From NCBI RefSeq assembly GCF_000317515.1, contig NC_019738.1:7094001-7158000 (forward strand): a stretch of 64,000 bases of DNA. Direction: 5' to 3'. Shown here piece by piece: positions 4,104 through 26,676 of this stretch; position 1 is the first letter of the stretch; the number at the start of each line of letters is the position of its first letter. Both the position numbers and the translations under genes were made by a program. This DNA comes from Allocoleopsis franciscana PCC 7113 (GTDB lineage Bacteria; Cyanobacteriota; Cyanobacteriia; Cyanobacteriales; Coleofasciculaceae). The notes beneath the pieces are model-generated. The model did no database searches and was not told the origin of the DNA. It worked only from the letters and a program-made list of their open reading frames with translations.

Positions 4104-4252
4104 GAACAATTTTGGATTCTAGATTTTGGATGTTAGATGTTGAATCGAGAGCTACCAGTAGAGTGGACAGTGTTCACATATTACTAATACTACATAGCGC
4201 TTCATTAGTTTAAACGCCAACGAGATTTTATTACTTCCCATTCCCCATGCCC

Positions 4253-5104
4253 TCAATCCAATTGGCGTCCGGTACGCTCAACAAAGATATCTTCTAGGTT
4301 AGAGGGACGAACCATGATACCGGTTTTATCCGGTAAGCTATCCAAGTAGGCATTCGCTTGTGCTAAGTCAGGAAAGAATTTGTACTCAAAACGTTCCCCA
4401 ACTTGTTTCATCACCAATCCCTCTCCATGTTGTGCTTTGAGTTGTTGGAGAGTTCCGAGTTCAATGAGTTGTCCGGCGTCCATAATCCCAATGCGATTGC
4501 ATAAAAACTCCACCTCATCCATATAGTGGGTGGTGAGTAACATCGTCATCCCCTGTTTATTCAAATCGCGAATAATTTCCCAGAGGCGGCGGCGGGTTTG
4601 GGGATCAAGTCCTACGGTAGGTTCATCCAAAAACAGAACTTTGGGTTCGTGCAATAGCGCCCTAGCAATTTGTAGGCGGCGCTTCATGCCACCCGAAAGG
4701 GTTTTGACTAAACTATCGCGTCGATCTGCCAATTCAACATACTCTAACCATTGATTAATCAGCCGCTGACGCTTGGGATTCGGAATGTGGTGTAAGCGTC
4801 CGTGCAGTTCCATGTTTTCCCAGACGGTGAGGTCGGCATCGACGCTAATTTGTTGCAATACAACGCCGATATTCTCTTTCACTTGTTGTCTGTTGCGTAC
4901 AACATCGTAACCCGCAACCTCAATTTGACCAGAACTGGGTCGAGTCAGGGTGGTTAGCATCCGAATGGTGGTAGATTTGCCAGCACCATTGGGGCCGAGT
5001 AGGCCAAACATCTCTCCCGATTCGATGGTGAAGGAGAGGTCGTTAACAACGGGGACTTTGTCGTAGGTTTTGTGGACGTTCTGAAGGGAAACGGCAGATG
5101 GCAT
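4253..5104 (-). CDS. ABC transporter ATP-binding protein (DrrA/CcmA type)
   Basis: 283 residues. Walker A is GPNGAGKST (about 37-45), the signature is LSGGMKRRLQIARAL, Walker B is VLFLDEPTVGLD, and the switch His lies in LLTTHYMDE. The C-terminal extension with SNLEDIFVERTGR is typical of exporters that pair with ABC-2 permeases. It would power export of an unknown lipid, drug or polysaccharide. No permease lies next to it, so its partner must be elsewhere, unlike the second such ATPase at 13269-14210. Confidence 0.9.
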   Translation of the reverse strand: MPSAVSLQNVHKTYDKVPVVNDLSFTIESGEMFGLLGPNGAGKSTTIRMLTTLTRPSSGQIEVAGYDVVRNRQQVKENIGVVLQQISVDADLTVWENMELHGRLHHIPNPKRQRLINQWLEYVELADRRDSLVKTLSGGMKRRLQIARALLHEPKVLFLDEPTVGLDPQTRRRLWEIIRDLNKQGMTMLLTTHYMDEVEFLCNRIGIMDAGQLIELGTLQQLKAQHGEGLVMKQVGERFEYKFFPDLAQANAYLDSLPDKTGIMVRPSNLEDIFVERTGRQLD

Positions 5105-5255
5105 AGATGCCTGTACAAGATGGGTCAGCTTTACGGATTATCATATCTTGGGTTGCTAGAAGAGTGGTTGAAACCCAAAGCCTTTCCCTGCACAATGAAA
5201 TTCTATATCATGAAAAGTTAATTTATTCAAGGAAAGATTGACTTTTGCACGAGGT

Positions 5256-5963
5256 CTATTGAGAAAACAGCCTCATTGTCACGTTTTGTAACACTCGTAA
5301 TCCCTGCATCGCTCCCCGAATTAGACGGGTAGCGGCAATGGGTTGCCGTATCAGGGCGATCGCTAAGGGTAAAGGTTGAAGCGCACCCTCAGGGGTGAGT
5401 GCGGATGTAAGATTGGGCAGGTTGTGGCGAGAGTCGTCGCTGATCACTCGTAGCATGGCGACTGGCACTCCAGCTTGAGAGAGAACCTCCAAAGCCGCAA
5501 ATCCTTCCATATCGACCACTTGGGTATCGTAGAGTTGACCAAGATGGCGTTTTTCGTCAGCAGAACAAATAATGCGATCGCTCGTGAACCCCTTCACCAG
5601 AGAAACCCCTGCTTTTAGCTTGTCCTGCAATAACCAGGTCAGTTCGCCATCAAAGCAGCGCCATACAGGAGTAGCATCACTTGACTGATAAGCACATTTG
5701 TGATATAGAACAACATCCCCAATAGCCAATTGAGACGATAAACTTCCACCTAAACCCATGATCAAAATGCTTTTAGGCTTCTTTGACAGAAAAGCCTCGG
5801 TCTGTTGCCATTGTTCCAGATAAAGTGTGACAGGCTTAGAGCCAACGGGAATGGGCAGCACTAACGGTTTTGTAGGCTGAACACCGCTTAAACCTCGACA
5901 GACGGCCTGATATTCGGCTCCTTGAGGAACCAGAATAATTTCGGGGAGTGGGGAATCGGTCAT
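5256..5963 (-). CDS. hpnG: nucleoside phosphorylase-like protein, HpnG-type (hopanoid side chain)
   Basis: 235 residues from ATG 5963. It has the phosphorylase/nucleosidase fold: ILIMGLGGSLSSQLAIGDVV near residue 85 (the GxGGxL...GDVV loop), then VVDMEGFAALEVLSQAGVPV with the active-site Met-Glu pair, and LRVISDDS with the acidic residue that contacts the purine base. This combination matches the PNP_UDP_1 proteins annotated HpnG, which release adenine from adenosylhopane during bacteriohopanepolyol synthesis. Divergent neighbours include an HpnA-like epimerase, which supports that reading. An unrelated nucleosidase role (for example MTA/SAH) is possible but less likely, because the sequence lacks the usual Mtn pattern. 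Confidence 0.75.
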   Translation of the reverse strand: MTDSPLPEIILVPQGAEYQAVCRGLSGVQPTKPLVLPIPVGSKPVTLYLEQWQQTEAFLSKKPKSILIMGLGGSLSSQLAIGDVVLYHKCAYQSSDATPVWRCFDGELTWLLQDKLKAGVSLVKGFTSDRIICSADEKRHLGQLYDTQVVDMEGFAALEVLSQAGVPVAMLRVISDDSRHNLPNLTSALTPEGALQPLPLAIALIRQPIAATRLIRGAMQGLRVLQNVTMRLFSQ

Positions 5964-17416: not shown

Positions 17417-19663
17417 ATGATTATGTGGGCAAAGCTGAGACAACAACTATGGCAATGGCGCGGTGTCTTAATTGCCGCTCCCAGTGTAGCCGCATTACTA
17501 ATTGGGTTGCGCTCGGCTGGATTGCTGCAAGGGTTAGAATTGGCAGCGTTAGACCAATTTTTTCGGCTACGCTCAAAAGAATCTGTTGACTCCCGTATTG
17601 TTATTGTTGGAATTAATGAAGCAGATATCCAAAAGGCAGGGCATTGGCCTCTATCTGATGCAAAGCTTGCAAAATTACTAGAAACACTCAAACAGCAACA
17701 GCCGAGAGCGATTGGTCTTGACCTTTATCGTGATTTACCAGTAGAACCCGGTCATCAGGAGTTGATTAAGGTTTTTGCCTCAACTCCGAATTTAATTGGT
17801 ATTCAGAAGGTAGTGGGGAATTCGTATGGGTTAGCCGTTAATCCACCTCCAACATTGAGCAAATTCGGTCAGGTTGGGGCTAATGATTTTGTGGTGGATA
17901 CCGATGGGAAAATTCGTCGCAGTCTACTAACTCTGAAGGATAAGTCGGGAAAGACAATCCCAAGTTTAGCAACCCGGTTAGCCTTGACTTATCTGGAGAC
18001 TAAAGGGATTAAACTCGAAATTATTGACGAGACCAAACAGAAGTATAAGCTTGGCAAAGCGACATTTACTCCATTTAATGCCCATGATGGGGGTTATTTC
18101 TTTGCAGATGCAGGCGGATATCAGATACTGTCTAATTTTCGCAATTTGCGGCAGGGTTTCCGTACCCTATCGATGACCGATGTTTTGCAGGGGCGGGTGC
18201 CAGTCAATTCAGTGCGCGATCGCATTGTCTTGATTGGAGTAACTGGAGAGAGTGTTAGGGACAGCTTTTACACGCCCTATAGTAGCAGGCAGGTTAGTCA
18301 AGCGGCGACTAGCTTTGCTGGCGTTGAAATTCATGCCGATGTAGTTAGCCAGATTTTGAGTGCAGCGTTAGAAGGTCGCCCTCTGATTAAAGTTTGGTCT
18401 GAACCGATGGAGTGGTTATGGATTTTTGGTTGGGCAGTGGTGGGTGCGACGTTGAGCTGGATACGGCGATATCGGGATGGTGTAACCCAGCGATCGCCTT
18501 TAACCGTTGTCAGTATTTTCTTCGCAGGAGGTGGCTTGGTCTATGGCAATTACTTGGCTTTTCTTCAGGGATGGTGGATTCCCGTTGTACCGCCTGTTCT
18601 GGCTTTAGCCGGGTCTACGATCGCAATTTCCAGTTATGTCGCCTACACAGCAACCGGGATGCGTCAAACGTTTGGCCGTTATCTCACGGATGAAGTGGTT
18701 GCCAATCTTCTGGAGACACCGGAAGGATTACAACTCGGTGGTGAAAAACGAAAAGTTACGATATTGATGTCGGATTTAAGGGGGTTTTCCGCGTTATCCG
18801 AGCGAGTATCGTCAGAAACCGCCGTGGAGGTGATCAACTTCTATTTGGAAGTGATGACGGAAGTGATTAGCGATTATCACGGCACGATTAATGAGATTAT
18901 GGGCGATGGCATTCTGGTAATGTTCGGTGCACCGATCGCTAGAGAAGACGACTCGCAACGTGCGATCGCTTGTGCTATAGCGATGCAGTTGGCAATGGAT
19001 AAAGTGAACAATAAGGCCCAACAAATGAACCTACCCTCACTGGACATGGGCATTGGCATTAATACAGGTGAAGTCTTAGTGGGGAATATTGGGTCAAAAA
19101 AACGCGCTAAGTATACAGTGATGGGAAGTCCTGTTAACTTGGCGGCTCGAATTGAATCTTATACAGTAGGCGGGCAAATCTTGGTGTCTAAAGACACTCT
19201 CAAAGAAGTTGGTTCCATTGTCAGAGTGGATGAAACATTGCAAATACAGCCTAAAGGATTCCAAGAACCCATCACTGTTTATGAAATTGGCGGCATTGGC
19301 GGTGAGTTCAACTTATTTGTCCCGAAAAAAGAAGAGGTACTAGTCGTTCTCAGTCAAGCAATCCCTGTACAGTATACGGTTTTACAGGGGAAATATATGG
19401 GAGAGAAGGTATTTCAGGGGACGTTAGTTAAGTTATCGACCGGTTCAGCCCAGATATGTTCTGAATATCCGGTGGAATTGTTGAGCAATCTCAAGATGAA
19501 TTTAGTGACTGGGATGGAAAAGGCAAGGGGATTGGGGGATATCTATGCCAAAGTGGTGGAAATATCAGCGGATAGTCCCACTAATTTCTGTGTTCGTTTC
19601 ACGGGTATTCCCGCAGAGGTGGCAGCGTTGCTTTATTATCTGCGTGACTCCTCTTCAAATTGA
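17417..19663 (+). CDS. CHASE2 sensor class III adenylate/guanylate cyclase with C-terminal PilZ-like domain
   Basis: 748 residues. TM1 is at about 16-31, an extracytoplasmic CHASE2 domain at about 45-325 (VIVGINEADIQKAGHWPLSD, RDRIVLIGVTGESVRDSFYT), and three more membrane helices at about 332-415. The class III cyclase domain runs about 445-625, with metal Asp in LMSDLRGFS (453) and IMGDGILVMFG (497), and the transition-state Asn and Arg in GSPVNLAARIE (574, 578). A further module of about 100 residues (645-748: IPVQYTVLQGKYMGEKVFQG, LVKLSTGSAQI, FCVRFTGIPAEV) looks like a PilZ fold without a clear RxxxR motif. It makes cAMP or cGMP in response to an external signal. Next to the exoprotein/CHAT genes. 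Confidence 0.9.
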   Translation: MIMWAKLRQQLWQWRGVLIAAPSVAALLIGLRSAGLLQGLELAALDQFFRLRSKESVDSRIVIVGINEADIQKAGHWPLSDAKLAKLLETLKQQQPRAIGLDLYRDLPVEPGHQELIKVFASTPNLIGIQKVVGNSYGLAVNPPPTLSKFGQVGANDFVVDTDGKIRRSLLTLKDKSGKTIPSLATRLALTYLETKGIKLEIIDETKQKYKLGKATFTPFNAHDGGYFFADAGGYQILSNFRNLRQGFRTLSMTDVLQGRVPVNSVRDRIVLIGVTGESVRDSFYTPYSSRQVSQAATSFAGVEIHADVVSQILSAALEGRPLIKVWSEPMEWLWIFGWAVVGATLSWIRRYRDGVTQRSPLTVVSIFFAGGGLVYGNYLAFLQGWWIPVVPPVLALAGSTIAISSYVAYTATGMRQTFGRYLTDEVVANLLETPEGLQLGGEKRKVTILMSDLRGFSALSERVSSETAVEVINFYLEVMTEVISDYHGTINEIMGDGILVMFGAPIAREDDSQRAIACAIAMQLAMDKVNNKAQQMNLPSLDMGIGINTGEVLVGNIGSKKRAKYTVMGSPVNLAARIESYTVGGQILVSKDTLKEVGSIVRVDETLQIQPKGFQEPITVYEIGGIGGEFNLFVPKKEEVLVVLSQAIPVQYTVLQGKYMGEKVFQGTLVKLSTGSAQICSEYPVELLSNLKMNLVTGMEKARGLGDIYAKVVEISADSPTNFCVRFTGIPAEVAALLYYLRDSSSN

Positions 19664-20170
19664 ATTCTGTAAGGGTAGGATGTAGAAAAGAGCGACAACG
19701 CTCTGTGAAAAGTTTTTTTCCTAGTCAGCAAGATTGGTAAGTTTGATATAATCTCGTAACATCTACCTCTTGGCACTGGGAGAAATCCAATGCGCCGCCC
19801 TATCTTCTTGTGGGCTATTTGGCAACGGCTAGTTCTGCCTAAGCCCCATTATTCCGGATAATACGCTCTCAGTGAATTCTGTCATGATGCCGGAATGCAC
19901 GGTTTGTACGAATACAGGGGAAACAGTACAGGGTAAACCTGTTCCCCAGTTTCAGGAAGTTTTCGATGCCAATGGGAGGTGAGGCGTTTTTTAATAAGAC
20001 AGGGCAGATTGAGACGATTTTCAGTCGAGTGACAGGGAGTTCGGTCTCTAATATTGATGGATTGCTTGGGGCTAATGGGACGGCAAGTTTGTTCGTGCTT
20101 AATCTCATTGGGTTTATTTTTTAGTCCGAATGAGCAGTTAACTATTTATATATTGCCAAGGAGGCAAACG
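19664..20170. other. cyclase downstream region containing a haemagglutinin relic
   Basis: 507 bp. A 23-codon frame at 19790-19861 is not supported. From about 19930 the sequence is a degenerate filamentous-haemagglutinin N-terminal domain (annotated separately). The last 20 bases carry a strong AAGGAGG ribosome site for the small Cys-rich peptide gene. Confidence 0.6.
19930..20124 (+). pseudogene. relic of a filamentous haemagglutinin N-terminal (TPS) domain
   Basis: With one extra base near 19960 ignored, the sequence reads [51 protein letters not shown] and stops with TAG at 20122-20124. That is the core of the haemagglutination-activity domain (compare the intact exoprotein: FHSFKEFNIDPG, ILSRVTG, GSADLFLLNPHGIIFG). 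The family's NPNGI is here NLIGF. No signal peptide precedes it and nothing continues after the stop. It is a broken relative of the next gene, not a near-identical copy. Confidence 0.82.
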
Positions 20171-20320
20171 ATGAAAGGCACAATCATGGTCGGGTTAGCT
20201 TTCGCTCTACTATTAGCGACTGTATCTAGCTCTACTGCTGCATCTAGCTCTACTGCTGCTACGGCTTGTACATGTCTAAATATAGACGGTGTAAAAATAT
20301 GTCTAGGTTGTAATAACTAG
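20171..20320 (+). CDS. secreted Cys-rich micropeptide (49 residues)
   Basis: ATG 20171 is preceded by AAGGAGG at about 8 bases, one of the strongest ribosome sites in the window. Residues 1-20 (MKGTIMVGLAFALLLATVSS) form a clear signal peptide, followed by a Ser/Ala-rich spacer STAASSSTAATA that comes from an 18-bp tandem duplication, and a 19-residue tail TACTCLNIDGVKICLGCNN with four Cys (CxC...CxxC). Cleavage may follow an AxA site, or the first Cys could be lipidated (weak lipobox ATAC). It sits 53 bp upstream of the exoprotein gene on the same strand, so co-transcription is likely. No family recognised. Confidence 0.65.
   Translation: MKGTIMVGLAFALLLATVSSSTAASSSTAATACTCLNIDGVKICLGCNN
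20224..20259. repeat. perfect 18-bp tandem duplication inside the micropeptide gene
   Basis: The unit ATCTAGCTCTACTGCTGC occurs twice in a row (20224-20241, 20242-20259), encoding Ser-Ser-Ser-Thr-Ala-Ala twice. It keeps the frame and lengthens the spacer between signal peptide and Cys-rich tail. Confidence 0.9.
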
Positions 20321-20373
20321 CGTAACCATAAACGAGCAGAAGAAATTGTCTCTCTGCTCTTTGCAGTTTTTTA

Positions 20374-22698
20374 ATGAAACAAGACATTCGTCTACTTGGT
20401 CTTAGTAGCAGTATCTGCTTTTATTGCCTAACGGCGACCGCTCCCACTCAAGCTCAATCTAACCAACCTGTTCAGTTAGATGGAAGTACAAGCACTTCAA
20501 GCATAAGAGGCGATTGCTCTATCAGTTGTACCATTACAGGTCAACATATAGGAGGAAACAATCTCTTCCACAGCTTTAAGGAATTTAACATCGATCCTGG
20601 CGCAACAGTTATATTTGATACTCCTGCTGGAGTCACTAGAATTCTGAGTCGGGTGACAGGAAATGACTACTCCCACATCCAAGGAACGCTGCAAGTATTG
20701 GGCAGTGCTGACCTGTTTTTGCTCAATCCTCACGGCATTATCTTCGGTTCTAATGCCCAATTGAACATTAATGGTTCTTTTGTGGCAAGTACGGCGAGTA
20801 GCTTGATTTTTAATGATGGTTCTCTGTTCAGCGCCACTGACACAACGCCACCATTACTGACTGTAAGCGTACCTGTCGGTCTGCAATTCGGGGCAACTCC
20901 TGGCAGCATTACCCATCAATCCGGAGACTTGCAAGTAAAAACTGGTCAGACTCTAGCACTAGTAGGAGGGGATGTAAATCTGTTGGGGGGAAACCTGAGG
21001 GCACCAGGTGGACGGATTGAGCTAGGAAGTGTTGCTGCTAACAGTCTCGTTAGCTTAACTCCAAACCCAAGCACTAGAGGTTGGGTCTTGGGATATGAGA
21101 GTGTGCAGAAATTCAAAAATATTCAGCTATCCCAAGGAGCTGTTGTTAGTACAACTAATATAGTCAGTGGGGACATCCAGTTGTATGGAAGACAAATCAC
21201 AATTGCTGATGGTTCTCAGGTGGGAGGATTTACAATTCAAGGAACGTCAGCAACTAAAGGCGGAACTTTAGTAATACACGCCGATGACTCTTTGGAAGTA
21301 AAGGGTACAGCTTTGAACGATCCGACGAAAGCTAGCGCACTGTTTACTGGAACATTTGGTGCCGGACAGGCGGGTGACATATCAATTAAAGCAAAGCAAC
21401 TGTTCGTTGATAGTGGAGGAACAGTAATAGCATCTACTTTCAAAAATGGACAAGGAGGGAATATAACCTTAGATATCGAGCAATCTGTAAACGTGATCGG
21501 TTCTGACAGTAAGATAATCACTCAAGCTGAGCCTGGGAGTACTGGAGGTGCTGGTGGACAATTGCAGATTACTACAGAGAAATTAATGATTCGTGATGGA
21601 GGGCAAATAGCAACCTCTACCTTTGGTTCAGGCAATGGAGGAACTTTGCTTGTAGATGCCTCTGAAGTGGAAGTAAGCGGTCGATCACAAGATGGTCATT
21701 TACCTAGTGGCTTATTTGCACAAAGCCTCAACGATCAAACAAGAGGTAATGGAGGAAACTTAATCATTAATACGAATCGCTTAGTCGTTGAAGGTGGTGC
21801 AAACATATCAGTTGCTTCTCGTCGAGGTAGTCAAGGTAATGCGGGGAGGCTAGAAGTAAATGCCTCAAAGGTAGAAGTGATTGGTACTGGACTTGATCAG
21901 GACGGTAATATTGTTCCCAGTTCGTTGTTAGCGTCAACCGCTTCCGGTCAAGGAGGCAACATCACGATCAATTTATCAAACTACTTGTTGCTGAGTAACG
22001 GCAGCCAGATCTCTACCAGTGCCGAGCGTGAGGGCAATGGTGGACAAATTAGAATTAATCAGGGATTTGTTGTTGCAGCGCCCACAAACTCAAACAGTGA
22101 CATCATTGCCAATGCCATTAATGGACGGGCGGGAGGTATTATAATCAATAGTGAGAGTGTACTTGGACTAATAGTTTGGACGCCAGAAAAAATAGCAAAG
22201 GAATTTGCTACCGATTCCAATCAATTCCAACCACGTAACCAACCCAGCAACGATATTACCGCCTTTTCACAGAATCCCGCTCTCAGTGGCACAATCACTA
22301 TCACTACGCCGAAAGTTGACCCCAGCCAGGGATTAACCCAATTACCAGAGGAACCTGTTGACGCTACCCAACAAATTTCCCAAGCCTGTTCAGGAGACCA
22401 GAAAGATGTCGTAGGCGAGAACAAATTCGTCATCACTGGACGGGGCGGTTTGCCCTCTAGTCCCGCTGATTTGTTCAGTACAGACCAAGTCCTGACCGAT
22501 TTAGGCACACCAGTCGCCCCTACCGCCATTCGCACCCGTGGTAGAACAATTACACCCCCCGCTCCTTCCCCAGCTCTCCTTGTAGAAGCGCAAGGCTGGT
22601 TTATCGATGGTAATGGGGTAGTTCACCTAGTTGCTCAAGGCTCTAACGCTACACCCCAAAGCCATTGGCAACCACCTGTGCAGTGTCCGAGTTCCTGA
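20374..22698 (+). CDS. filamentous haemagglutinin-type two-partner secretion exoprotein
   Basis: 774 residues. Signal peptide at about 1-28 ending PTQAQ. The TPS domain at about 30-165 contains GGNNLFHSFKEFNI, ILSRVTGNDYSHIQGTLQ and LFLLNPHGIIFGSNAQLNIN. A long Gly/Asn-rich beta-helix follows, with repeats such as GGQIATSTFGSGNGG, GNGGNLIINTNR and GQGGNITI, then a C-terminal segment with one Cys (ISQACSGD) and GRGGLPSSPADLF, seen in this cyanobacterial exoprotein group. It would be exported through an outer-membrane TpsB pore, which is not encoded in this window. Upstream: the micropeptide; downstream convergent: DUF928 and CHAT. Confidence 0.9.
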   Translation: MKQDIRLLGLSSSICFYCLTATAPTQAQSNQPVQLDGSTSTSSIRGDCSISCTITGQHIGGNNLFHSFKEFNIDPGATVIFDTPAGVTRILSRVTGNDYSHIQGTLQVLGSADLFLLNPHGIIFGSNAQLNINGSFVASTASSLIFNDGSLFSATDTTPPLLTVSVPVGLQFGATPGSITHQSGDLQVKTGQTLALVGGDVNLLGGNLRAPGGRIELGSVAANSLVSLTPNPSTRGWVLGYESVQKFKNIQLSQGAVVSTTNIVSGDIQLYGRQITIADGSQVGGFTIQGTSATKGGTLVIHADDSLEVKGTALNDPTKASALFTGTFGAGQAGDISIKAKQLFVDSGGTVIASTFKNGQGGNITLDIEQSVNVIGSDSKIITQAEPGSTGGAGGQLQITTEKLMIRDGGQIATSTFGSGNGGTLLVDASEVEVSGRSQDGHLPSGLFAQSLNDQTRGNGGNLIINTNRLVVEGGANISVASRRGSQGNAGRLEVNASKVEVIGTGLDQDGNIVPSSLLASTASGQGGNITINLSNYLLLSNGSQISTSAEREGNGGQIRINQGFVVAAPTNSNSDIIANAINGRAGGIIINSESVLGLIVWTPEKIAKEFATDSNQFQPRNQPSNDITAFSQNPALSGTITITTPKVDPSQGLTQLPEEPVDATQQISQACSGDQKDVVGENKFVITGRGGLPSSPADLFSTDQVLTDLGTPVAPTAIRTRGRTITPPAPSPALLVEAQGWFIDGNGVVHLVAQGSNATPQSHWQPPVQCPSS

Positions 22699-22777: not shown

Positions 22778-23578
22778 CTAGTTCTTCAACGGTGCCTTGG
22801 CGATCGCACCTAACCCCGCATCCTTTAACAAATTTTCCCAAGCTGATGCCACTTGTGGGTCATTGGGTTGAGCTTTTCGTAGTGCTGCCAGTGCTGCCAC
22901 TGTATCAAACCAGACACCATTCTTGGCATATAGAGCCACCTTGTCTAGAGGCTTTGCCTGCTCGATTTGACTCAAGGTAGAATTAGGTTGGACGCGTCTG
23001 ACCGAACCCTCTACAAACGAATCTTCAGGTGCTCCCGACCCACACACCATCGAAACCAACCATTTGTAATCCTTCCCCATCTCCAACTCAGGTGCATTAG
23101 CCGGTAGCTGAATGCTGACAATGCCCGGAGTGCCTATCAAGTTTACAGTCGTTTGATATATTCCCTTACCATCTCGTTCCAATGTTAGTTCCATTGCTGT
23201 AGCAGAAGTTTGCGGGACGTAAACCAGAAAAGTCGGACGAGGTGATACGGTTAATTGTGGGTCAGTAACGGGCGATCGCAACAAAGGAGTCAGCAGTTGG
23301 TCTAGAGACTTCACTTCAAGAGTAGATTGTGCTGAAGATATTCGATCCTGCGAACATCTCCCGTCGTTTCGCCTGCCACCACCTACCGTAGTGGTAGGTG
23401 CGGGTTGATCTTTACGAGGTTCAAACGTCACCTGTTTTAGCCTAGCTAGGGGAGATGTTTGAGTTGGGGTTTTAGCCTGTGCCTGTGCTGTTGTTAAAGA
23501 GCCAGACGTTATAACAAGTTCTAATAACAGAGGTGCTGAGAGTAGTAGAAAATATCCGGGAAGTTTGGTCCGAATCAT
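22778..23578 (-). CDS. DUF928 family exported protein
   Basis: 266 residues. Signal peptide at about 1-33 (LLLSAPLLLELVITSGSLTT, then AQAQA). Residues 115-205 hold the DUF928 core: SPRPTFLVYVPQTSATAMEL, then TTVNLIGTPGIVSIQLPA and GKDYKWLVSMVCG, followed by SFVEGSVRRV. Beta-rich, periplasmic. The family is limited to cyanobacteria and is commonly found near CHAT and haemagglutinin genes. It is the downstream gene of the CHAT protein on the same strand (260-bp gap). Function unknown. Confidence 0.87.
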   Translation of the reverse strand: MIRTKLPGYFLLLSAPLLLELVITSGSLTTAQAQAKTPTQTSPLARLKQVTFEPRKDQPAPTTTVGGGRRNDGRCSQDRISSAQSTLEVKSLDQLLTPLLRSPVTDPQLTVSPRPTFLVYVPQTSATAMELTLERDGKGIYQTTVNLIGTPGIVSIQLPANAPELEMGKDYKWLVSMVCGSGAPEDSFVEGSVRRVQPNSTLSQIEQAKPLDKVALYAKNGVWFDTVAALAALRKAQPNDPQVASAWENLLKDAGLGAIAKAPLKN

Positions 23579-23838: not shown

Positions 23839-26496
23839 TTAAAGCCAATTCCCGATCAGTACAAAGGGTGCCCAGTAAAAGGGATGTCTGAATTTAGGCT
23901 GCTTGAGTAACGCCAGTTGGGCATCGCGTAGGGCTTGGGCTTTGGTTACCTGGAGCTGAGCTAGCGCCTGGTAAAATGCCATCATAAACTCTGAAGTAGA
24001 TTGGTCATCCACAGGCCAAAGCGTTGCCAGAGTACTGCGTGCCCCCGATCGCACCGCTACACCCGCTAGTCCCAAAGCCGCCCGATTGTCGCCAGAGGCA
24101 GTTTGACAAGCACTCAGTACCAGCAATTCAATGGGTTTGCGATCGCTCTGTTCTCTCGCCTGGAGTACTCCCCCCAACTGTTTGACATCGATGCGTTCAT
24201 CCCAGGCCAGAATAAAAGTCTTGTCCGCCTCAGAGCTAAATTGACCGTGAGTTGCTAGATGTACCACAGGGAAAGGAGCTGCCTTAATCTGGGATTGGAG
24301 AGCCGTACTGGTAAATTGCTGATTGAGAAGTACCTCCGTGGGGAGTTTGGATTGGATCTGCACCACCTCAGACTCTACACCCGGTAGTGCCGAAAAACCC
24401 TGCCTTGCCTCGCTTAATCCACCAACCAGTACCTTGATTGGTTGGCGAGTTAAGGCTTGGGGTTCGAGTAACTGTAGACTTGGGGTGAGGGCAACACCGT
24501 ACTTTTCTACCAAGTACTGCTGTCCATCGTAGAGTGCTGCCATTGGTAAATTTTTTAGGGAACCATCCAAGGCAAACACCAAGGTTTTGATACCACTGGC
24601 TGCTAAATCAGATTCAGCCGGTCGAACTAGCCAATCATAAACCTTTTGGAAAAGCGGCAAGCGCTCAGCATCTAGAGCGGTGCGCCTCAAAGAGCGTCGC
24701 GCCTTGTTGAGAATATCGTCCAACTCACTTTGGGGTATAGCAGTGGTATAGTGACGCAGAGGTTGATTGGGTAAGGAGAGAATGACTTCTAAACGGTCAG
24801 GTAAAATAATCGGATAAATCACTGCCGCTTGAGAGTCAACCCGGTCAATTAATTCAGGTTGAGCTGTTAAACATGCCTCTCGAAAGAAGTTATCTAATTC
24901 TGCCAACTGAAGGGATTCAATCACCTCACGCGCTAGTTTAAGATTTTCCTGGCTAATCTCTCCTCCCTCAGTCCGTTGCAGCAGCAGCCCTACAAACTGC
25001 CGATAGACGGGTTCTACACTCTCCCGAAACGAGAATTGCAAATCGAGATTAGTTGCAACTAAGTCTTTGCGTAGGGAATTAAGCGTATTAATTGCTTCTT
25101 TGTAAGCAGTAATGGCGCTATTATAGGTTGAACTATTTGCCTTTCCCTCTCCAGCTTGGGCTTTAAGCAACCGTCCCAACTGCCACTGCCACTGGTAAGC
25201 AATATCTGGTGCATTGCTAGATTGAGCTAAGAGTAATGCTTTTTCTGTTAGTTTCTGAGCCTCCGACCATTGCTGATTTTGCTCGTAAACCTGACTGAGA
25301 TAGCCAAGAGCGTAGGCTTGGGCCCGTTGATCTTGCAATTCCTTTGCTTGCTCAATCGTTGCCGCTAGGATTTGAGCCGCAGCTTGCGGTGTAGGTACTT
25401 CTCCACTCCCAACTCCCGACTCCCGACTCCACAGCTTCATTAAACTTTGGATCAAGTTAATCCGGGCGTAGATGGATGTTCGTGTCGCTGGTAAATTGGC
25501 GAGTTGAGGCAGGATTTGCGAGGATAATTTCTCAGCTTCTGCCCATTTTTCAGTATCGATTAATAAGCGCAGTTGATTTAATTGTGCCTGGAGGGTTGTT
25601 GTAGGAGAGGTAGAGGTAGTAATTGCCTGCTGATAGTACTTAAGGGCTTGCTCAAATTGCTGCAAAGCGTAAGCGGTATTACCTAAACTCATCAAAGCCG
25701 CAGTAATTGCTGGGGGAGATTGCAATCGTTGGGAAATCGCTAAACTTTGCTCTAGCACCTGCTGAGATTGTTTCAAATCCCCTACTAAGCGCAAAGCCTC
25801 ACCAAAGCTCAACAATCCAGCCGCTTTAATATCAGAGTCAGGCTGGTTTTGCAGGATTTGATTGGCTTGTTCTAAGGTATCCTTGACTCGCTGATAGAAG
25901 CCTAGCGCTCTCAAAGCTTGAGCCTGGTTAATTAAACTGCGAACCACCCCAGTTTTATCTCCAACTTGCTGATAAGTTTCGGTGGCTTTTTGCCAAGTGG
26001 CAAGTGCCTGTTGTGCCTGTCCTTGAGCAAGTTGGAGTTTACCTTGAGTATTTAGTGCCTGAGCGAAGATTTTCAGGCGATTGGTGTTACTGTCCTTGGC
26101 TTGGAAGATTTGTAAACTGGTCGTAATCGCTTCATTGGCTTCAGGTAGTCGCCCTAACTGGTGATAGGCTAGAGCGAGATTGCTCAATGCTATCGCTTGA
26201 TTGATGCCGTCTTCACGAGCCGCAAATGCATCTGCGGCCTGCTTCCAGACCATGACCGCCGCTGTATATTGACCGGATTGGTAATGTTGAAGACCCTCTT
26301 GCATCAACTGAGAGGCATTTTGAACTGAGGACTGAACGGCTGACGCATCTGGGACAGCTATATTGACCCTAGCCATTCCCGCTTCCTTGGGGTAGCCTCC
26401 CCATGCCAACGAGAGGCTCAAAAGGGTGGTAATAGTCCCTAAGCCAAGATACTTTAGAACGTTCTTGAACCTCTTGTTGAGATTGATAGGAGTCAT
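23839..26496 (-). CDS. TPR-CHAT caspase-like protein
   Basis: 885 residues from ATG 26496. An N-terminal hydrophobic segment (about 12-33, signal or anchor: GLGTITTLLSLSLAWGG) is followed by TPR repeats at about 60-490. The C-terminal CHAT domain at about 590-885 contains VVHLATHGQF with His750 and LLVLSACQTASGD with Cys797, the catalytic dyad of this caspase/separase-related family, then GVRSGARSTLATLW-like text and the closing HPFYWAPFVLIGNW. It is a predicted cysteine protease acting at the envelope. Clustered with DUF928 and the exoprotein, it may process or control the secreted protein. Confidence 0.92.
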   Translation of the reverse strand: MTPINLNKRFKNVLKYLGLGTITTLLSLSLAWGGYPKEAGMARVNIAVPDASAVQSSVQNASQLMQEGLQHYQSGQYTAAVMVWKQAADAFAAREDGINQAIALSNLALAYHQLGRLPEANEAITTSLQIFQAKDSNTNRLKIFAQALNTQGKLQLAQGQAQQALATWQKATETYQQVGDKTGVVRSLINQAQALRALGFYQRVKDTLEQANQILQNQPDSDIKAAGLLSFGEALRLVGDLKQSQQVLEQSLAISQRLQSPPAITAALMSLGNTAYALQQFEQALKYYQQAITTSTSPTTTLQAQLNQLRLLIDTEKWAEAEKLSSQILPQLANLPATRTSIYARINLIQSLMKLWSRESGVGSGEVPTPQAAAQILAATIEQAKELQDQRAQAYALGYLSQVYEQNQQWSEAQKLTEKALLLAQSSNAPDIAYQWQWQLGRLLKAQAGEGKANSSTYNSAITAYKEAINTLNSLRKDLVATNLDLQFSFRESVEPVYRQFVGLLLQRTEGGEISQENLKLAREVIESLQLAELDNFFREACLTAQPELIDRVDSQAAVIYPIILPDRLEVILSLPNQPLRHYTTAIPQSELDDILNKARRSLRRTALDAERLPLFQKVYDWLVRPAESDLAASGIKTLVFALDGSLKNLPMAALYDGQQYLVEKYGVALTPSLQLLEPQALTRQPIKVLVGGLSEARQGFSALPGVESEVVQIQSKLPTEVLLNQQFTSTALQSQIKAAPFPVVHLATHGQFSSEADKTFILAWDERIDVKQLGGVLQAREQSDRKPIELLVLSACQTASGDNRAALGLAGVAVRSGARSTLATLWPVDDQSTSEFMMAFYQALAQLQVTKAQALRDAQLALLKQPKFRHPFYWAPFVLIGNWL

Positions 26497-26676
26497 GAGC
26501 TTCACGCGCAACGAAAGGATGAAAACGTATCTTCTCTGGCTCCTGACTCCTGACTCCTAATTTCCAGATGAGTCAGGTAGGTTTTTCCTTACTCCCAAGA
26601 ATAAAAGTTTCTTACACAAAAGACTAGGGTGTAGCTCTTTAACCTAAACTCTTAATACGAACTTTACGGGTTGCAG

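Follow-up and report, generated by a model that had tools for sequence, protein, structure and literature searches.

In the cyanobacterium Allocoleopsis franciscana PCC 7113, an open reading frame (ORF) of only 49 codons immediately precedes the gene for a two-partner-secretion (TPS) exoprotein. Is so short a frame a gene of the exoprotein locus and, if it is, what would its product do there? The ORF, here called P0001, is part of the window, the 64,000-nucleotide stretch of DNA that was analysed (C1:7094001-7158000 of the whole source genome, G000); coordinates given below without a prefix are those of the window. A preliminary description had taken P0001 for a secreted, cysteine-rich gene of unknown family linked to the exoprotein. 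We consider it likely that P0001 is a real gene of the exoprotein locus, and probably the most abbreviated form of a helper or ligand, so far undescribed, that belongs to the known TPS system.

Results

Anatomy and coding signals of P0001

P0001 occupies positions 20171-20320 of the forward strand and encodes 49 amino acids plus a stop (MKGTIMVGLAFALLLATVSSSTAASSSTAATACTCLNIDGVKICLGCNN*). A Shine-Dalgarno (SD) sequence, AAGGAGG (20158-20164, forward strand), is located 6 nt 5' of the ATG at 20171, and 53 bp separate the stop codon, which ends at 20320, from the exoprotein ATG at 20374. The translation comprises a predicted signal peptide (residues ~1-24) with the hydrophobic core IMVGLAFALLLATV and an end of small residues, a spacer (residues 25-30), and a 19-residue tail with the arrangement C33-x-C35-x8-C44-x2-C47 (TACTCLNIDGVKICLGCNN; 20261-20317, forward strand). 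The residues around this core do not form a typical lipobox. The end of the signal peptide and the spacer contain a perfect 18-bp tandem duplication (20224-20259, forward strand) that is read in frame as SSSTAA-SSSTAA; in an alternative register the copies are 17/18 identical. In all of these points, from the ribosome site, signal peptide and CxC...CxxC tail to the distance from the exoprotein and the frame-preserving duplication, the preliminary description proved accurate. No date can be assigned to the duplication because no homologue of the ORF was found.

Dinucleotide shuffling of the 710-bp intergenic region (19664-20373) yielded a comparable ORF, defined as a signal-like ORF with an SD score of at least 5 and a terminal C-x(1-3)-C...C-x-x-C tail, in 1 of 3000 shuffles. 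Synonymous codon preference did not support coding of P0001, whose score was lower than that of any 49-codon window in two neighbouring genes. Its GC3 of 0.25 versus 0.37 for the exoprotein gene is at the edge of the range among comparable small genes, and the other small genes of the group described below tend to have a GC3 at or below that of their neighbour. Scans around the ORF identified no Rfam family and no promoter or terminator on the forward strand. An ORF that arose by chance and has no role would fit the atypical codon usage and the lack of a homologue, but it is very unlikely in light of the shuffle control and of its position in a slot that is filled by such a gene in most relatives of the exoprotein.

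The exoprotein gene and its neighbours

The gene at 20374-22698 (forward strand) encodes a 774-aa TPS (TpsA) exoprotein of the beta-helix type with a PF05860 domain (E 1e-60) and two C-terminal cysteines, C672 and C771. An AlphaFold2 model of the protein is a beta-helix in which the C-terminus holding C672 and C771 is poorly modelled. We considered this cysteine pair as a companion of the small gene and rejected the idea, as two C-terminal cysteines ~100 residues apart occur in nearly all cyanobacterial TPS exoproteins, whether the small gene is present or absent. Because the pair is universal in this sense, a cysteine link to the P0001 tail is not specific evidence.

Upstream of the intergenic region is a CHASE2-adenylate/guanylate cyclase gene (17417-19663, forward strand), a recurrent neighbour of TPS exoproteins. 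Downstream of the exoprotein gene, a DUF928 gene (22778-23578, reverse strand) and a TPR-CHAT protein gene (23839-26511, reverse strand) are likewise recurrent, the former as a neighbour of the TPS group to which the exoprotein belongs. Within the intergenic region are the decayed remains of the N-terminal part of a further TPS gene (19800-20146, forward strand), ending just 5' of the P0001 ribosome site. This piece covers PF05860 positions 25-105, is interrupted by TGA and TAG, and has 76% DNA identity to an intact TPS gene elsewhere in the source genome (G000:C1:2815624-2815948). In that genome 34 PF05860 matches exceed the cut-off, against four TpsB (ShlB) matches, all four outside the window, and there is no tpsB beside the P0001 locus. 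Many exoproteins may share few transporters.

Searches for homologues of P0001

P0001 had no match above cut-off in Pfam, NCBIfam or PDB sequences, and no homologue in plasmids, in the genome_contigs collection, in the single other genome of the genus, or in 291 genomes of the order. Those weak matches that were translated proved to be chance stretches, many of them interrupted by stops. One library entry, NCBIfam NF040942 (ExtJ), matched weakly over 43 positions (13.7 bits versus a cut-off of 52.5, E 0.064) and its genomic context differs; P0001 is not a member. Pairwise alignments of P0001 with five counterparts from exoprotein relatives (P0002-P0006) were not significant, and a search of the order with one of these, P0004, returned P0004 alone, the remaining matches being weak and mostly containing stops. 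The nearest protein in form is that of locus L218, whose tail (ACNCWCEDIKRFCCRC) has a 16-residue cysteine spacing identical to that of P0001 and also begins with CxC, a first pair that is rare in the group. Kinship between the two was not accepted, as their non-cysteine residues are not clearly above chance (permutation p 0.05).

The same slot in relatives of the exoprotein

The three best relatives of the exoprotein in the family (G005, 51%; G002, 44%; G013, 45%) each have a small cysteine-containing gene directly upstream whose product is predicted to be exported (3/3). These slot proteins comprise 128 aa with 9 Cys in G005, 173 aa with 6 Cys in G002 and 163 aa with 6 Cys in G013, and in the latter two genomes the small gene abuts or overlaps the exoprotein reading frame. 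The P0001 gene and its G005 counterpart have CAAGGAGGCAAA..ATGAAA in common at the ribosome site and start, and the DNA of the two start regions aligns with a local score of 38, which was reached by 5 of 500 shuffles. The check for a homologous small ORF in close relatives, whose absence the preliminary description had named as a refuting outcome, therefore gave a mixed answer: read literally, half of that refuting outcome holds, as there is no sequence homologue, but positional counterparts exist.

The survey was widened to the order and then to 80 named loci (L numbers). Further slot proteins are predicted to be exported and have tails such as CNKPCPPDGRLGYYIGQVCVPCGG, CGECTTPTRKPGERSGGLCVQCGP and CGECKTDTGELGQYTGSGVLKRCIKC; counterpart lengths range from 54 to 173 aa, and P0001 is shorter than all of them. 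The main tail class is CxxC...G...CxxC, whose aligned core has the four Cys and a single Gly as its invariant positions, and the middle parts vary, being of low complexity or helical with weak TPR matches. Among counterparts, dN/dS was below 1 in 6/6 pairs (0.39-0.74). The gene order is TpsB-small gene-TpsA in L222 and L193, and TpsB-S8 subtilase-small gene-TpsA in L198. In L198 the interposed subtilase gene (complement strand 4143-5564) might encode a protease for maturation.

The variety of the counterparts bears on the idea of a diffusible exported peptide, a signal or an antibacterial, that acts on neighbouring cells and is tied to the exoprotein by nothing but a common promoter. The mature size of P0001 and its four cysteines are typical of such peptides, and sequences in the group turn over fast. 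However, counterparts of up to 173 aa, some with helical or TPR-like middles, do not resemble peptide hormones or bacteriocins, genes for processing or immunity were not seen, and the linkage is to an exoprotein rather than to a peptide transporter; we regard this explanation as improbable.

Several variants were also observed. Locus L192 (474-1470) contains a tandem pair of diverged small exported genes (57% identical) before one TPS gene. A second tail class, ..PFxPWCI, precedes TPS genes in L199, L201, L202 and L187, with a lipobox-like AAGC in L199 and L201. A third class, ..AC[IV]xVxGxxxCC, precedes TPS-CHASE2 gene pairs (L091:3536-3736 and L040:1055-1285), and 3' of both of these small genes there is similar DNA, GGGAAGG(T/C)GTCTAC..ACGGGTGCTTCAA, that is possibly regulatory. 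A class with two-Cys tails is found before TPS genes in L204 and L209.

Linkage of the slot to one exoprotein clade

A terminal tail with two cysteine pairs was present in 9/29 small exported ORFs upstream of TPS genes versus 0/189 elsewhere, counts for which the sequence patterns were partly refined as the analysis went on. Among the ORFs counted as elsewhere, the cysteine-containing ones of L204, L206 and L209 actually lie in front of TPS genes that escaped the detector. A tree of 191 TPS proteins required 10 changes of the label, versus 17.5 in shuffles (0/500 as low). The exoprotein of the window falls within a clade of 21 members (SH-aLRT 95), and its nearest row in the tree, L017, has a small gene. 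A strict filter detected a small exported Cys-containing gene in the slot for 11/21 members of this clade versus 12/170 outside it (Fisher 1e-6), and in 12/573 shuffled regions. Relaxing the demand for a ribosome site and reading by eye raised the count to 19/21 (exceptions L191 and L195), a figure obtained within the clade alone, the 170 others having been counted by the strict filter only. Among these 19, the cysteine motif of L215 precedes a C-terminal extension and the protein of L186 has just 54 aa. Most TPS loci lack such a small gene, which is therefore not universally needed.

The strongest independent test of the linkage was a tail profile (A2) built without P0001 and run over 389 genomes irrespective of gene neighbourhood. 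It recovered its eight training members and, as one new member, L298 (E 0.001), a 74-aa predicted exported protein whose gene immediately precedes a TPS gene. Three weaker matches were opened (L299, L302 and L306); they lie outside TPS loci and appear chance-like. The profile did not recognise P0001 (-2.1 bits, rank 743/1141), probably owing to its short loop and CxC first pair.

Failure of the profile, together with the lack of measurable conservation of P0001, its being the shortest form beside counterparts of 54-173 aa, the adjoining decayed TPS gene and the 18-bp slippage, would suit a remnant, in which a longer counterpart gene underwent internal deletion and repeat slippage and kept an open frame after its function was lost. 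Against this, nothing has been lost from the ribosome site and start codon through the signal peptide to the four well-spaced cysteines before the stop, a joint occurrence seen in 1/3000 shuffles. We judge a remnant unlikely, yet worth serious consideration.

P0001 is placed in the group by slot and architecture and not by sequence, because neither the tail profile nor codon usage is supportive. It is co-directional with and directly upstream of a PF05860 gene, it has a predicted signal peptide and a ribosome site, its two cysteine pairs end in CxxC, and its exoprotein belongs to the mostly filled clade. The proposed link of a secreted, cysteine-rich gene to the exoprotein is thus borne out by slot and architecture in the closest exoprotein relatives, and not by P0001 sequence homology or codon usage. 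Likewise, the family is unknown in that no library recognises P0001, which nevertheless is not isolated, as it fits this TPS-linked group.

Discussion

Our preferred reading, which we hold tentatively and at slightly less than even confidence, is that P0001 is a genuine, minimal member of a fast-evolving group of Sec-exported, Cys-tailed proteins encoded before tpsA that act on their own exoprotein. Provided that P0001 is a real gene of the locus, we lean modestly towards a product that partners the exoprotein in the periplasm or at the surface. What suggests that role is the Sec-type signal, the compact cysteine tail and the linkage of the small genes both to one exoprotein clade and to TpsB, and among the ligand or accessory, signal, toxin and metal readings it is an exoprotein ligand or accessory that fits the linkage best. 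If translated, P0001 would be exported via its Sec-type signal and cleaved to a mature peptide of ~17-25 aa. The tail may then be oxidised to a compact hairpin held by disulfides (or by a metal), and the exoprotein encoded next to it would be the target of the peptide, the most likely site being the periplasm at the point where the exoprotein passes TpsB. The C-terminal, cysteine-bearing segment of the exoprotein is a possible point of contact, and the peptide might help export, anchoring or maturation of the exoprotein as a third partner.

An AlphaFold2 model of the L298 protein shows the cysteine tail as a hairpin (pLDDT ~91), and a Foldseek search with the tail hairpin of this counterpart model gave no match to any solved fold. 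This hairpin and the CxxC...CxxC(G) pattern, both from counterparts, might also describe a metal-binding tail in which the two cysteine pairs serve as knuckles for zinc or another metal. However, the first pair of P0001 is CxC, the hairpin lacks a match among solved folds, and exported cysteine pairs are usually oxidised; a metal-binding tail is quite improbable.

Other TPS systems offer partial precedents for the preferred reading of an exported partner. BcpO of the Burkholderia bcpAIOB locus (TPS/CDI) is described, in the portion of PMC3415462 drawn on here, as a small accessory encoded in the TPS locus and needed for exoprotein function; it is an exported lipoprotein in part of the alleles, that of B. 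thailandensis being a lipoprotein encoded 5' of bcpB. Like P0001 it is small and comes from a TPS locus, and so provides a precedent for an exported accessory. By description, BcpO belongs to another phylum and the same portion of PMC3415462 reports no cysteine tail for it, whereas P0001 lacks a lipobox and its gene is 5' of tpsA rather than tpsB. In PMC5422565, the TpsA proteins HMW1 and HxuA are described as having a C-terminus with a disulfide that stays in the periplasm. This anchor resembles the cyanobacterial case in placing cysteine chemistry at the periplasmic TpsA end, cyanobacterial TpsA proteins having two C-terminal cysteines, but it belongs to TpsA itself, whereas a small gene of the P0001 type encodes a separate exported protein. 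HMW1C-type proteins have been called a 'third partner' of TPS (PMC3983070); HMW1C, too, is the product of a third gene at a TPS locus but is a glycosyltransferase, and not a small exported cysteine protein.

The open-access literature (subscription papers and preprints aside) contained no description of a small exported cysteine protein for cyanobacterial TPS loci. The TPS system is known, and the third partner appears to be new to the literature. It is a more doubtful proposal that cyanobacterial TPS has a third exported partner, a small protein in rapid diversification whose cysteine-rich C-terminus, of several tail classes, docks on the exoprotein, with the 49-aa ORF as its irreducible form in which the tail alone would be sufficient.

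TPS is taken to require two proteins, and cyanobacteria have dozens of TPS exoproteins to which no role has been assigned. A small exported gene that recurs with one exoprotein clade would offer a handle on the export, anchoring or deployment of these exoproteins, and it would stand for a class of small genes identifiable by slot rather than by sequence.
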